A DNA stretch of 64,000 nucleotides from Bacteroidetes bacterium GWF2_38_335 (GCA_001769535.1 MEOH01000006.1:103077-167076), one strand, 5' to 3'. Shown: positions 14,020 through 59,535, numbered from the stretch's first letter. Notes: generated by a model from the sequence alone, not told the origin. Numbers and translations: made by a program.

Positions 14020-14054
14020 ACAATTGTTTAAAAGACAAAACTAATAAAATTAAT

Positions 14055-14107
14055 TATGAGTTATGGTTATAAGTTATAAGTTATGGGTTATGAGTTATGG
14101 GTTGGGG
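14055..14107. repeat. Heptamer array, left flank of composite element copy 1
   Basis: Tandem TTATRRG-type heptamers (ttatgag, ttataag, ttatggg) on the plus strand, with one unit of 6 bases. The same heptamer occurs again at 14432-14500 and, in reverse orientation, at 18637-18696 and 18885-18950. Confidence 0.85.
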
Positions 14108-14136: not shown

Positions 14137-14430
14137 TCCTTATTTTACATCGAATAAATGGCCTGACCACCTATGCTGAAACTTCGGTGGTTAAATAAGG
14201 CCAGGTAAATTCAACCCCGGCTTTGTGCCTCCCTTCGGTTGCCGAAGGTTTATCTTAAGACTTGCCGTAGGTGAAACGCTTAAGCTTCAGCGACAAGCGG
14301 TCAAGCAGGGGATTTAATAAGCCTGTAGGGCTTAAATTATGGTAGCCCCGGGCAATTGCCCGGGGGCCCGCCGGCCATGAACACATTAGAACGAAAAACC
14401 CCATTCCGGCGGAAATGAATGAGTCGGTTT
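14137..14430 (+). repeat. Core of composite intergenic element, copy 1
   Basis: A GC-rich, non-coding core. It shares a GGCCTGACC...GGCCAG hairpin block, a CCCCGGCTTT block, AAGCCTGTAGGGCTTAAATTATGGTAGCC, a CCGGGCAATTGCCCGG palindrome, and CCGCCGGCCATGAACACATT...TTCCGGCGG with the copy at 17.04-17.24 kb. The outer CCGCCGG and CCGGCGG can pair. Lies between array flanks and between the M16 peptidase and lpxD genes. No ORF. Confidence 0.8.
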
Positions 14431-14431
14431 G

Positions 14432-14500
14432 GTTTATGGGTTATAAGTTATGGGTTATAAGTTATGGGTTATGAGTTATGAGTTATGAGTTTGGGAGTTG
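14432..14500. repeat. Heptamer array, right flank of composite element copy 1
   Basis: Eight consecutive heptamers, alternating ttatggg and ttataag and ending with three ttatgag units, just before the lpxD stop codon. Confidence 0.88.
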
Positions 14501-14506
14501 AGGATG

Positions 14507-15562
14507 TTATTTTTTCTCAATGGTTGCTTTCAACTCAGCCAATTCACGTTCCAGTTTATTGATGGTATTTTTAAGATTGGGCAGACTTCTATAAAGCACG
14601 TATGATTTTTGATAGTCTTTAATTTCGAAAGCAGGTGAACCCTGAACGATGGCTCCCTTTTCAGTAATAGTTTTTCCAATACCTGATTGGGCAGCAATCT
14701 TTACTTCATCAGCAATTTTGATATGGCCGATAATTCCTACCTGTCCGCCAATCATGCAATTAGCCCCAACTTTTGTTGATCCGGAGATGCCGGTTTGTGA
14801 AGCCACAACTGTATTTTCGCCTATTTCGACATTGTGGGCTATCTGAATCAGGTTGTCAAGTTTTACGCCTTTTCTGAGTATGGTAGAACCAATAGTAGCA
14901 CGGTCAATGGTTGTATTGGAACCTATTTCCACATGATCTTCAATGATAACGTTGCCAATTTGCGGAACTTTTTTACGGTTATTATCGTCCTGTATGGCAA
15001 AGCCAAAACCATCGCCTCCAATAATTGCACAGCTGTGGATGGTACATTGGGCACCAATTTTACAGTCGTTATAGACTTTTACTCCTGAATTTAAAACCGA
15101 ACCATTTCCCACCGAAGCATTTTCACCTATATAAACATGTGGAAAAAGACTTACATCATCACCGATAACAGCATAGGCATCAACACAGGCAAAAGGTGCA
15201 ATAAAAACATTTTTACCGATAGTGGCTGTTTTATCCACAAAAGCAAGCGGGTCAATCCCTGTTCTGCGGGGTTTAGAGTTGTTATAAAACTCCAGAACCC
15301 GGGCAAAAGCTTCATAGGCATTGCGGACTTTTATCATGGTAGCTTCAACCTTTGTTTCGGGCTTAAAATCATGATTTACAAGAACAATGGAAGCGCGTGT
15401 AGAATAAATAAATTTTTCGTATTGCGGATTGGCAAGAAATGAAAGTGTACCTGGTTTTCCTTCTTCAATTTTCGAGATGTTGTTTACCTTAACAGCCGGA
15501 TCTCCAATAATTTCTCCCTCTAAAAGTTCGGCAATGCTTTTCGCGCTTAATTCCATACACAT
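14507..15562 (-). CDS. lpxD: UDP-3-O-(3-hydroxyacyl)glucosamine N-acyltransferase
   Basis: Third enzyme of lipid A synthesis; transfers a 3-hydroxyacyl chain from ACP to UDP-3-O-acylglucosamine. The 351-residue protein has the LpxD N-terminal uridine-binding domain (AKSIAELLEGEIIGDPAVKVNNISKIEEGKPGTLSFLANPQYEKF), then a left-handed beta helix of hexapeptide repeats over residues 105-310 (IGKNVFIAPFACVDAYAVIGDDV and so on) with the catalytic-region HSCAIIGGDGFGFA and IAHNVEIGENT motifs, and a C-terminal helix. Start may be at 15562 or 15556 (MCMELSAKS). A nearby HD hydrolase gene upstream is a frequent neighbour in the phylum. Shows the cell makes lipid A. Confidence 0.95.
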   Translation of the reverse strand: MCMELSAKSIAELLEGEIIGDPAVKVNNISKIEEGKPGTLSFLANPQYEKFIYSTRASIVLVNHDFKPETKVEATMIKVRNAYEAFARVLEFYNNSKPRRTGIDPLAFVDKTATIGKNVFIAPFACVDAYAVIGDDVSLFPHVYIGENASVGNGSVLNSGVKVYNDCKIGAQCTIHSCAIIGGDGFGFAIQDDNNRKKVPQIGNVIIEDHVEIGSNTTIDRATIGSTILRKGVKLDNLIQIAHNVEIGENTVVASQTGISGSTKVGANCMIGGQVGIIGHIKIADEVKIAAQSGIGKTITEKGAIVQGSPAFEIKDYQKSYVLYRSLPNLKNTINKLERELAELKATIEKK

Positions 15563-15635
15563 TTATTTTTGACAAAACTATGAAAATATTTTTTTTAGTA
15601 TGTCATTTTTGGTTTTTTATTTTTCTAAAATATTC

Positions 15636-16889
15636 TCAATCCAGTTTCTTGGGGTAACACATAAAATATTTTCTCACCTTTTTTGAAAGCACTGAAATAT
15701 TGAGCATATCCGATGCTTCGGCAATATCTTTCAATTCATTGTTTTTCATAAGGATGTTAATTTTTTCATCATTGGCACTGTAGGCGTAATTAGTAATGTT
15801 ATCGGTAAAAACAAAGTATTTGATTTCCTTGTCGGTGAGTGACATTTTTTCTTTGAATTCCTTCTTTTTTGCGCTGAGAACTTCTTTATTAATGGGCTCA
15901 TTCTGAATCACAATTTTAAAGAGGTTTCGGTTAATCATATTGCTGCTGAGTGTTGATAACACCTTGTCGGGATGGTTTACCCATACTTTAATTGCCGACA
16001 TGATGTCGTAATCGTCGAGGTTTGCATACAGATCGAGCAGCGTATGGTCGCCAAGTACTTTTTTATCATTTTTAAAGTCATCGGCACAAACATCATTGCT
16101 GAGAAAATACTGTAATGCCGGGGTGGCAAAAAGCATTTCGCCCTTTTCACTGAGTTCCTTTGCCCTGAGCAATGTTTTCACCAGAAGCTGTTCGGCCGAA
16201 AGAACCGTTTTATGAAGATACACCTGCCAGTACATCAGTCGGCGGGCAATCAGGAATTTTTCAATGGAGTAAATGCCTTTAGATTCAACCACCAGTTCAT
16301 CGTTAACAATATCGAGCATCTTAATGATGCGGTCAGAACCGATTACTCCTTCAGAAACACCTGAGAAAAAGGAATCCCTTCGCAGGTAATCAAGCCGGTC
16401 CACATCAAGTTGTCCGGATACCAGTTGATGCAGGAATTTTTTATGATATTCGTTTTTAAAAATTTTAATGGCCAAATCGAGTTTTCCCTTATATTTTTTA
16501 TTCAGCTTGTCCATAAACAACAATGAAAGATCTTCATGCGTCACATTTTTAACAATGGTAAACTCCAGCGCATGAGAAAAAGGTCCGTGTCCAATATCAT
16601 GAAGCAGAATGGCCAGCATGGCGGCATTTTCTTCCTTTTCAGTGATAACATGACCTTTTGACCTGATGATATTAATTACCGTGCTCATGAGGTGCATGGC
16701 TCCAATGGCGTGTTGAAAACGGGTATGGTAGGCCCCCGGGTAAACCAGATAGGTTAGTCCGAGTTGCTTTATTCTTCTGAGTCGCTGAAAATATGAATTT
16801 TCGATGATTTCATAAATCAATCCCGAAGGAATGTCAATAAATCCGTAAACAGGATCGTTCATTATTTTTCTTTTGTTCGGAGCCGCCAT
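15636..16889 (-). CDS. HD-domain phosphohydrolase, dGTPase-like group (COG1078-type)
   Basis: A 417-residue soluble HD-superfamily protein. It begins with KRKIMNDPVYGFIDIPSGLIYEIIENSYFQRLRRIKQLGLTYLVYPGAYHTRFQHAIGAMHL, the classic start of the dGTPase-like subgroup, and continues with the metal-binding LLHDIGHGPFSHALE near residue 100 and HEDLSLLFM near 125, then GQLDVDRLDYLRRDSFF near 170. Proteins of this type hydrolyse deoxynucleoside or other nucleoside triphosphates; the exact substrate here is unknown. Placed 73 bases upstream of lpxD on the same strand. Confidence 0.92.
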   Translation of the reverse strand: MAAPNKRKIMNDPVYGFIDIPSGLIYEIIENSYFQRLRRIKQLGLTYLVYPGAYHTRFQHAIGAMHLMSTVINIIRSKGHVITEKEENAAMLAILLHDIGHGPFSHALEFTIVKNVTHEDLSLLFMDKLNKKYKGKLDLAIKIFKNEYHKKFLHQLVSGQLDVDRLDYLRRDSFFSGVSEGVIGSDRIIKMLDIVNDELVVESKGIYSIEKFLIARRLMYWQVYLHKTVLSAEQLLVKTLLRAKELSEKGEMLFATPALQYFLSNDVCADDFKNDKKVLGDHTLLDLYANLDDYDIMSAIKVWVNHPDKVLSTLSSNMINRNLFKIVIQNEPINKEVLSAKKKEFKEKMSLTDKEIKYFVFTDNITNYAYSANDEKINILMKNNELKDIAEASDMLNISVLSKKVRKYFMCYPKKLD

Positions 16890-16940
16890 TTTTTTAAGTT
16901 AAGATTGTAAAGATAGTAAAATGTGTAGTTATGTCAAAGA

Positions 16941-17035
16941 AGTCGGGAGTTCGATGTTCGGAGTTCAGAGTTCGGTGTTCGGAGTCGGAAGTCGGAAGTC
17001 GGAAGTTGGAAGACCGAAGAGGGAAGACGGAAGTA
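16941..17035 (+). repeat. Degenerate heptamer array, left flank of composite element copy 2
   Basis: A run of 7-base units around ggagttc, ggtgttc, ggaagtc and ggaagac. The consensus differs from the TTATRRG arrays but the period is the same. The track ORF 16921..17142 is only a readthrough of this repeat. Confidence 0.75.
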
Positions 17036-17039
17036 TTGA

Positions 17040-17235
17040 TCAACTCTTTAAATCCAAAAAAGCAAACGGCCTGACCTCCTTTGCTTTAGTTCTGGAGGTT
17101 AAAAAGGCCAGCTCAATTCCGCCCCGGCTTTTAAGCCTGTAGGGCTTAAATTATGGTAGCCTCGGGCAATTGCCCCGGGGCCCGCCGGCCATGAACACAT
17201 TAGAACAAAAAACCCCATTCCGGCGAATATGAATG
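17040..17235 (+). repeat. Core of composite intergenic element, copy 2
   Basis: Shares long blocks with copy 1 at 14.14-14.43 kb: GGCCTGACCTCC...GGAGGTTAAAAAGGCCAG, CCCCGGCTTTTAAGCCTGTAGGGCTTAAATTATGGTAGCC, a GGGCAATTGCCC palindrome, CCGCCGGCCATGAACACATTAGAAC and CATTCCGGCG. It lacks the sequence between the first hairpin and the AAGCCTGTAGGG block that copy 1 contains and lacks a right-hand heptamer array. Confidence 0.8.
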
Positions 17236-17424
17236 ATGAATTTAATCAGAAGGTAAGTTTATAAAGTCCATCAAGTCAAAATTTCCTAAAAAGCATTGAA
17301 AACAGAGGATTTCGAATTTCGAAAACCAGTCGGGGCATGACTTATCACTGAACCACTCAGGAGGCAACTTAAAGTCGTACCCTGACTTTCACAGACTTTA
17401 AACTTTTTTACCGATATTTGCCAA
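17236..17424. other. Intergenic region before small membrane-protein gene
   Basis: No ORF, hairpin or clear promoter pair was found in this AT-rich remainder after the copy 2 repeat. Confidence 0.4.
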
Positions 17425-18636: not shown

Positions 18637-18696
18637 TCACAACCCATAACTTATAACTTATAACTTATAACCTATAACCTATAACCCATAACCCCA
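18637..18696 (-). repeat. Heptamer array, flank of composite element copy 3
   Basis: Units cttataa, cctataa and cccataa, which are the reverse complement of the TTATRRG heptamers at 14.0-14.5 kb. Confidence 0.85.
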
Positions 18697-18697
18697 A

Positions 18698-18880
18698 CAC
18701 CCTCTTTCCTTTCCGCCGGAACAGTATTCTTCGTTATTTAGATTTCATGGCCGGCGGTTTTTATCTTACCGATTCAAACACCCCGGATTTCATCCGGGAC
18801 TATTGTTATTCAACTCCTCCAGAGTTGCAATGCCCCAAACCCGAAACCAGAAACAAAAAGAACCCCCCCAAACCTCAACC
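18698..18880 (-). repeat. Core of composite intergenic element, copy 3 (diverged, inverted)
   Basis: On the minus strand it contains AACTCTGGAGGAGTT, TCCCGGATGAAATCCGGG (hairpin in the place of CCGGGCAATTGCCCGG) and CCGCCGGCCATGAA...TTCCGGCGGAAA. The final block matches copies 1 and 2 in order and pairing, while the loop sequence differs. Confidence 0.7.
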
Positions 18881-18884
18881 TCCC

Positions 18885-18950
18885 AACTCCCAACTCATAA
18901 CTCATAACTCATAACTCATAACTCATAACTCATAACTCATAACTCATAAC
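18885..18950 (-). repeat. Heptamer array next to the ftsZ stop codon
   Basis: Eight perfect tandem copies of ctcataa (18894-18949) preceded by degenerate units. The array ends 3 bases before the ftsZ stop, so it is transcribed as the very start of the ftsZ 3' untranslated region. Confidence 0.9.
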
Positions 18951-37706: not shown

Positions 37707-37777
37707 GGTCGGTTGGCCGAGTGGCTAGGCATCGGTCTGCAAAACCGGGTACGGCGGTTCGAATCCGCCATCGACCT
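37707..37777 (+). tRNA. tRNA-Cys (GCA)
   Basis: 71 nucleotides with acceptor GGTCGGT/ATCGACC (7 pairs, one G-T), anticodon loop CTGCAAA reading GCA, T arm GGCGGTTCGAATCCGCC and discriminator U73, which is typical for tRNA-Cys. CCA is not encoded. Confidence 0.95.
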
Positions 37778-37835: not shown

Positions 37836-38032
37836 GCTCCGCTTGAGCAAAAAAATTTAAATTAAAAAATCCCGAAGGCGATAGCCGGGGTTTTGCAGAG
37901 GGTATCCCCCCCTCTGGATCATGAAATAATCCGCTCCGCTTGAGCAAAAAAAAATTAAATTAAAAAACCCCGAAGGCGATAGCCGGGGTTTTGCAGAGGG
38001 TATCCCCCCCTCTGGATCATGAAATAATCTGC
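37836..38032 (+). repeat. Tandem 97-bp repeat containing terminator-like hairpins
   Basis: Two head-to-tail units start at GCTCCGCTTGAGC at 37836 and 37933 (period 97). Each unit holds the small GCTC/GAGC hairpin, an A/T-rich stretch, a hairpin around ACCCCGAAGGCGATAGCCGGGGT, and a GCAGAGGGTATCCCCCCCTCTG hairpin ending ATCATGAAATAAT. Copies are nearly identical; the first has TCCC for CCCC in the left arm and slightly shorter A tract. The track ORF 37857..38039 is an artefact of it. Confidence 0.85.
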
Positions 38033-48763: not shown

Positions 48764-48780
48764 CACTCCCAATTGAGTTG

Positions 48781-48853
48781 GTACCATAGCTCAGTAGGTA
48801 GAGCAATGGACTGAAAATCCATGTGTCCCTGGTTCGATCCCGGGTGGTACCAC
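48781..48853 (+). tRNA. tRNA-Phe (GAA)
   Basis: 73 nucleotides: acceptor GGTACCA/TGGTACC, anticodon loop CTGAAAA reading GAA, T arm CCCTGGTTCGATCCCGGG (a near perfect stem), discriminator A. CCA is not encoded. Confidence 0.96.
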
Positions 48854-59400: not shown

Positions 59401-59429
59401 AGTGGAAGTCTACAGAAGTACAAAAAAAA

Positions 59430-59530
59430 GAGGGCAAGCGACTCACATCGCACCGCTACAACCATCTACCCTTGCTACCTTCCGGTCCTGGGGGGGTTCG
59501 ACGGGAGCTGGTCGTATGAGACTTGCCCAG
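59430..59530 (-). ncRNA. ffs: Signal recognition particle RNA (4.5S-type)
   Basis: On the minus strand CTGGGCAAGTCTCA...CCCAGGACCGGAAGGTAGCAAGGGTA...TGAGTCGCTTGCCCTC. The central GGACCGGAAGGTAGCAAGGG segment is the conserved Ffh-binding loop, and GGGCAAG/CTTGCCC ends pair. Length about 100 nucleotides, followed by an eight-T tract. A strong promoter lies just upstream (annotated). Works with Ffh in co-translational membrane targeting. Ends are approximate. Confidence 0.9.
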
Positions 59531-59535
59531 GGCGG

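Follow-up and report, generated by a model that had tools for sequence, protein, structure and literature searches.

Intergenic double-hairpin mosaics in a Bacteroidetes genome as probable REP/BIME-like DNA elements, with subclass 1.2 Y1 transposases as candidate enzymes

The window analysed here is a stretch of 64,000 nucleotides from Bacteroidetes bacterium GWF2_38_335 (GCA_001769535.1, MEOH01000006.1:103077-167076), in which three copies of a structured repeat are found, all of them intergenic. Copy 1 has an M16 peptidase gene on one side and lpxD on the other, copy 2 lies upstream of an HD-domain gene, and copy 3 has yqeY and ftsZ as its neighbours. A window protein compared with its nearest named homologues is ~62% identical to them. 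The lpxD and HD-domain genes (14507-16889) share a 9-kb locus in 51 of the 80 Bacteroidota loci compared, for the most part as close neighbours, and the mosaics of the window sit just outside this gene pair, on both sides.

In copy 1, on the plus strand, the mosaic begins with module A (14160-14202), a hairpin with GGCC ends in which CCACC (14167-14171) pairs with GGTGG (14186-14190) around a loop of 14 nt, and which is inserted in the loop of the first hairpin (h1) of a unit designated E. It is followed by the spacer of unit E (AGGTAAATTCA) and the left arm of its second hairpin, h2 (14203-14224), by an optional insert with small hairpins of its own (14225-14318; CCTTCGGTTGCCGAAGG at 14232-14248), variants of which are present in several other copies, by unit C (14319-14367), composed of h1 AAGCCTGTAGGGCTT, a GGTAG-bearing spacer and h2 GCCCCGGGCAATTGCCCGGGG, and by unit D (14367-14422), a CCGCCGG...CCGGCGG stem with a loop of ~30 nt and then AAATGAATGA. 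Copy 2, also on the plus strand, contains the CCTCC/GGAGG variant of module A (17068-17109, with GGCC ends; CCTCC at 17075-17079 pairs with GGAGG at 17094-17098, again around a 14-nt loop), the unit E spacer and h2 left arm (17110-17131), unit C (17133-17181) and unit D (17181-17236), and the final blocks of the two copies are 95% identical over 105 nt. The bases, coordinates, 14-nt loops and GGCC ends given for both copies in the original prediction are exact, and the third copy that it placed nearby, with the same final block, was confirmed: copy 3 (18703-18833) lies on the minus strand, and its D block (18703-18758), which is that of copies 1 and 2, here adjoins a different, third double-hairpin type, consisting of AACTCTGGAGGAGTT, the spacer AATAACAATAG and TCCCGGATGAAATCCGGGG (18778-18833). 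Tandem arrays, given here without strand, flank the copies: a 7-nt array (TTATGAG, 14054-14103) and a 7/14-nt array (TTATGAG, 14434-14495) at copy 1, 7-nt arrays of GGAGTTC and then TCGGAAG (16946-17034) at copy 2, and 7-nt arrays of AACCTAT (18641-18693) and AACTCAT (18885-18950) at copy 3.

The repeats form a family of about 80 loci in the 5.27-Mb genome. The original prediction named two outcomes that would speak against it, a lack of covariation across copies and a lack of recurrence in the genome, and neither was obtained; a 201-base query gave 65 matching pieces in the genome. With covariance models, ~80 matches to unit E were obtained at E<=1e-3, and the clear examples of unit C and of the long A hairpin numbered 21 and 11. 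Unit E is a double hairpin in which h1 and h2 are separated by an A/T-rich spacer of ~12 nt ending in AATTCA; module A, the hairpin noticed in the original prediction, is an optional insertion in the h1 loop; unit C, likewise optional, is another double hairpin, whose h2 has GGTAG at its foot; and unit D is a 7-bp stem with a large loop of ~30 nt. In the ~406 kb read around the copies, which hold 83 clusters, all 44 neighbouring pairs of E and D have E first, at a distance of 17-21 nt (the composite being ~120 nt long), and in 17 of 18 neighbouring pairs of C and D the two units abut. E and D are arranged directly and in fixed order, with inverted E pairs in few clusters only. Three paralogous sites (L006, L030 and L003, at the ends of contigs C1, C25 and C3) have a common outer flank of ~100 bp and contain C plus the insert, E alone, and C plus A, respectively; since they share the outer flank yet differ in the inner modules, the modules appear to have been exchanged in place.

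Of 73 clusters compared with the output of a simple ORF caller, none runs into a large ORF, and 59 have short tandem arrays (7, 8-9 or 16 nt) no more than 250 nt away. Conversely, 98 of 186 tandem arrays are located within 250 nt of a cluster, a zone that makes up 10.7% of the read sequence. The full composite is confined to its own species, as it was not found in the 392 other genomes of the order (393 searched, including its own); a 163-nt element had no match in 40 relatives, and an exact 28-mer of unit C had none in the GTDB genome collection, from which genomes very near that of the window are possibly left out. An assembly artefact was ruled out, as the copies lie on many contigs and overlapping stretches of the genome sequence agree base for base.

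The pairing of the stems is preserved across the family. In 12 genomic copies of the A hairpin, 94.7% of cells are paired, compared with a shuffle mean of 90.7 (1 of 500 shuffles as high), and five cells are double changes, compared with a shuffle mean of 1.4 (again 1 of 500); when the partner is slid, at most 49% of cells are paired. In the inner helix of the same 12 copies the paired cells reach 98.8%, with double changes at two pairs. The signal is far stronger in other hairpins of the family: in h2 of unit E, 96% of cells are paired among 56 distinct copies (shuffle mean 81%) and 68 cells are double changes (shuffle mean 24, maximum 35 in 2000 shuffles), and the signal persists among the 29 distinct h2 sequences. 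At pair 4 of this stem all four Watson-Crick pairs occur (C-G 35, G-C 12, A-T 6, T-A 2), with one G.T. These shuffle statistics leave the relatedness of copies in, and sliding the partner by 1-3 columns abolishes the signal. As the paired signal exceeds the shuffles and is lost on sliding, hairpin formation is maintained. The covariation originally claimed from two copies of module A therefore holds genome-wide, in the 12 A copies and more strongly in the 56 distinct E copies, but the A/T swap on which it was built is weak on its own: it is found in three of 12 A copies, two of which share a lineage, so that it amounts to about two events. The maintained pairing may reflect RNA or DNA, and either selection or the correction of one arm from the other by template switching.

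What the original prediction missed is that genes for Y1 (HUH) transposases, in this genome and in relatives, have the same kinds of double-hairpin unit at their flanks. The transposase search of this genome, which covered Y1 genes, found four divergent Y1_Tnp genes, on contigs C3 (25933), C9 (40219), C18 and C26. Those on C9 and C18 adjoin E-type units (GCCCTGAAAGGGC, spacer, AATTCAGCCC...), that on C26 adjoins a related double-hairpin type, and beside that on C3 hairpins are followed by AATTACGGTAG, resembling unit C. Matches of model R1 at C9 and C18 in its own genome are circular and prove nothing, because R1 was partly trained on those flanks; for model R2, trained without any Y1 flank, two matches (E 4.5e-4 and 0.04) adjoin the C3 gene. 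Other genomes played no part in training; in these, five of the 79 listed R1 matches have a Y1 gene no more than 1 kb away, with 0.2 expected (P ~0.001 when counted as three clusters). One relative, G020, has just two R1 matches in its genome, one on either side of its Y1 gene, and the two flanks are exact inverted copies of each other over at least 40 nt, which was the upper limit of the test; in another, G040, an R2 match lies beside a Y1 gene. Strong hairpins are 12 times as dense beside 21 Y1 genes (6.8/kb) as in control intergenic DNA of other genomes (0.56/kb) and three times as dense in the same-contig comparison (7.3/kb beside Y1 genes versus 2.4/kb elsewhere), and they are present within 350 nt at 19 of the 21 loci. 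In a tree of the 21 Y1 proteins, nine with a unit label and 12 without, each of three unit types is confined to one side of a branch, and 1 of 200 shuffles of the labels gave a value as low for all three together.

Several observations count against the link to Y1 proteins: most R1 matches in the relatives are not near a Y1 gene, the h1 sequence is GGCC in the mosaics versus GCCC beside the transposases, and no partner transposase was found for unit D. In the sister species the Y1-flank repeat, searched through the whole genome, was found at its own locus only, and a dispersed repeat family is therefore lacking there. A comparison with empty sites gave no readable empty site; the contig of the sister genome ends at lpxD, and the other relatives show ~60% protein identity and different neighbours. 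As a separate observation, the Y1 proteins of two relatives in the order (loci L073 in G030 and L067 in G010) form a separate, strongly supported pair; around their genes stand tandem hairpins of the CCCCAGCCTGAAGGCTGGGG or CCCCACCTTGAAAGGTGGGG type, which make up another kind of unit.

The Y1 proteins are ~150 residues long and contain [DN]H[IV]H (HuH), WQ and YIxNQxxHH motifs, the C9 and C18 proteins deviating from the Y motif in one or two residues. In all four the motif is Y..[ND]Q, as in class 1, and not Y...NP, as in class 2. The NCBIfam IS200 model is matched, as are, by sequence, solved Y1 transposases, and the REP_Tyr_transpos model of NCBIfam scored far below its cut-off for one protein and was absent for the other two tested. 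By their signature, the proteins match subclass 1.2 of TnpA-Y1, whose published description covers Bacteroidetes and Cyanobacteria, gives a low copy number and in general no IS200-type structures at the ends, and lists REPs as 'no' (Quentin 2018, PMC6006769). The proteins in this genome resemble that subclass in length, in the HuH, WQ and YIxNQxxHH motifs, in phylum and in low copy number; in contrast to the published description without REPs, hairpin units adjoin the genes here and at least two unit types are dispersed in the genome. The double-hairpin units look like the missing partner of subclass 1.2, at least in this order. No paper after 2018 on REPs of subclass 1.2 was found in the open-access literature.

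The original prediction left open whether the hairpins act as RNA or DNA. That the repeats are cis-acting structured RNAs (3' UTR stabilisers, terminators or riboregulators) present in many transcripts, with selection on RNA folding, would agree with the genuine covariation of the E and A stems and with the intergenic position of all copies; moreover, many REPs in other bacteria are transcribed and act in mRNA (PMC3733652). However, conservation of the stems through compensatory changes, which is observed, is not specific to RNA, and the full composites occur in a single species. Relative to co-directional neighbouring genes, called with the simple ORF caller, the clusters are oriented 25 in the same and 20 in the opposite direction, and convergent sites are not enriched. 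In a terminator scan none of the main hairpins was followed by a terminator tail, and a single small hairpin, within the copy 1 insert, scored terminator-like. Rfam gave no match at the elements, only tRNAs and the small SRP RNA. The excess of G.T over A.C in the stems (32 to 5) would point to an RNA strand, but it falls to 11 to 5 when loop-closing pairs are left out; because these pairs dominate and the covariance model favours G-U, it is not decisive. A strand-specific or cis-acting RNA function is therefore disfavoured, the RNA alternative of the original prediction finds no support, and we consider a structured RNA very improbable.

Two further explanations invoke DNA. Replication slippage, recombination and template switching (quasi-palindrome correction) may have multiplied and homogenised the palindromes passively near the tandem arrays, without a dedicated enzyme. 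The close association with tandem arrays and the in-place exchange of modules are in line with this, and template switching alone is able to yield compensatory changes; but the constant order and spacing of units at dozens of loci that are not linked, the like units beside Y1 genes in other families and the agreement of unit type with protein clade are left unexplained, and we regard purely passive amplification as unlikely. Alternatively, classical MITEs or relics of a non-Y1 insertion sequence (e.g. one with a DDE transposase), from which the internal hairpins were inherited, would account for a defined composite of ~120 nt that is intergenic and amplified in one species. The ends of the composite (GGCCTG... 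and ...AAATGAATGA) are, by eye, not mutual inverted repeats, however, no target duplication was noticed by eye, the flanks being tandem arrays, and the units match the flanks of Y1 genes instead, Y1 being the transposases searched; such an origin seems distinctly unlikely.

The repeats are most likely DNA targets of a poorly studied single-strand-DNA transposase and not functional RNA. As Y1 genes here and in relatives are flanked by like units, the intergenic composites of hairpin units are probably REP/BIME-like DNA elements, and Y1 HUH transposases of TnpA-Y1 subclass 1.2 would be their cognate enzymes, although the link to the transposases is correlative. This reading is favoured because it brings together the covariation of E and A, the strict order and spacing, the intergenic location without orientation bias, the module exchange, the units flanking Y1 genes, their agreement with protein clade and the subclass signature. 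In the proposed mechanism, h1 and h2 would fold once the DNA there is exposed as a single strand, for example on the lagging strand; the Y1 protein would bind the hairpin and cut at a neighbouring tag, which may be GGTAG in unit C and part of ..AATTCAG in unit E; and excision and re-joining would disperse the units and splice those of different families into mosaics. The stems would stay complementary because unpaired copies are lost as substrates or because template switching corrects one arm. Recognition, cleavage and mobility of the units are in this scheme inferred. The broader proposal, that the subclass 1.2 Y1 proteins of Bacteroidota constitute a REP-processing system of their own, with clade-specific double-hairpin units and here an ordered composite (E, ~20 nt, D, with C and A optional) whose mosaics are made by the enzyme, is in our judgement evenly balanced.

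Some of these features are already known. Preservation of REP palindromes in a manner suggesting complementary mutations, and BIMEs that may be hybrids of two RAYT families, were both reported in 2010 (Nunvar 2010, PMC2817692), and GTAG repeats were found in phyla among which Bacteroidetes is not listed (Di Nocera 2013, PMC3733652). The family resembles GTAG-type REP/BIME elements and their RAYT/TnpAREP proteins in its short extragenic palindromes with many intergenic copies, in the GGTAG tag at the h2 foot of unit C, in its complementary stem changes and hybrid mosaics from more than one unit family, and in the units flanking Y1 transposase genes, as inverted repeats in one relative. It differs in that its unit consists of two hairpins joined by a fixed A/T spacer, the GT[AG]G foot tag is absent from units E and D, E is followed by D in strict direct order in place of the inverted pair that is the basic module of REPINs and BIMEs, and the transposases are of subclass 1.2 (Y..NQ..HH) and not of class 2 (Y...NP). 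A related Y1 transposase (matching the IS200 model) and subterminal hairpins are shared with IS200/IS605, whereas four divergent genes and dozens of non-coding units are found here instead of near-identical copies. The Y1 gene of G020, lying between long inverted repeats of double palindromes, recalls TIRtrons/TIRYTs (PMC3733652), but TIRYTs are mostly of subclass 2.1 with C-terminal HTH domains (PMC6006769), unlike the subclass 1.2 proteins here. As far as the open-access literature shows, three things appear new: the fixed-spacer double-hairpin unit, the E-D composite with its strict order, and the link to subclass 1.2.

The subclass 1.2 HUH proteins have been described as close IS200 kin without IS ends or REPs, a description that offered no substrate for them; the double-hairpin units are a concrete and testable candidate for one, and the natural stem variants, with all four Watson-Crick pairs at one position, provide a ready-made recognition experiment. 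A caution also follows, in that covarying intergenic mosaics in Bacteroidota may resemble structured RNAs and yet be DNA elements.

Elsewhere in the window, tRNA genes are located at 37707-37777 and 48780-48852 and a Bacteroidales small SRP RNA (RF04183) at 59428-59535 on the minus strand, and at 37836-38029 a 98-nt unit containing a GAAGGCGATAGCCGGGG-type hairpin occurs twice in tandem, the two being 96% alike.
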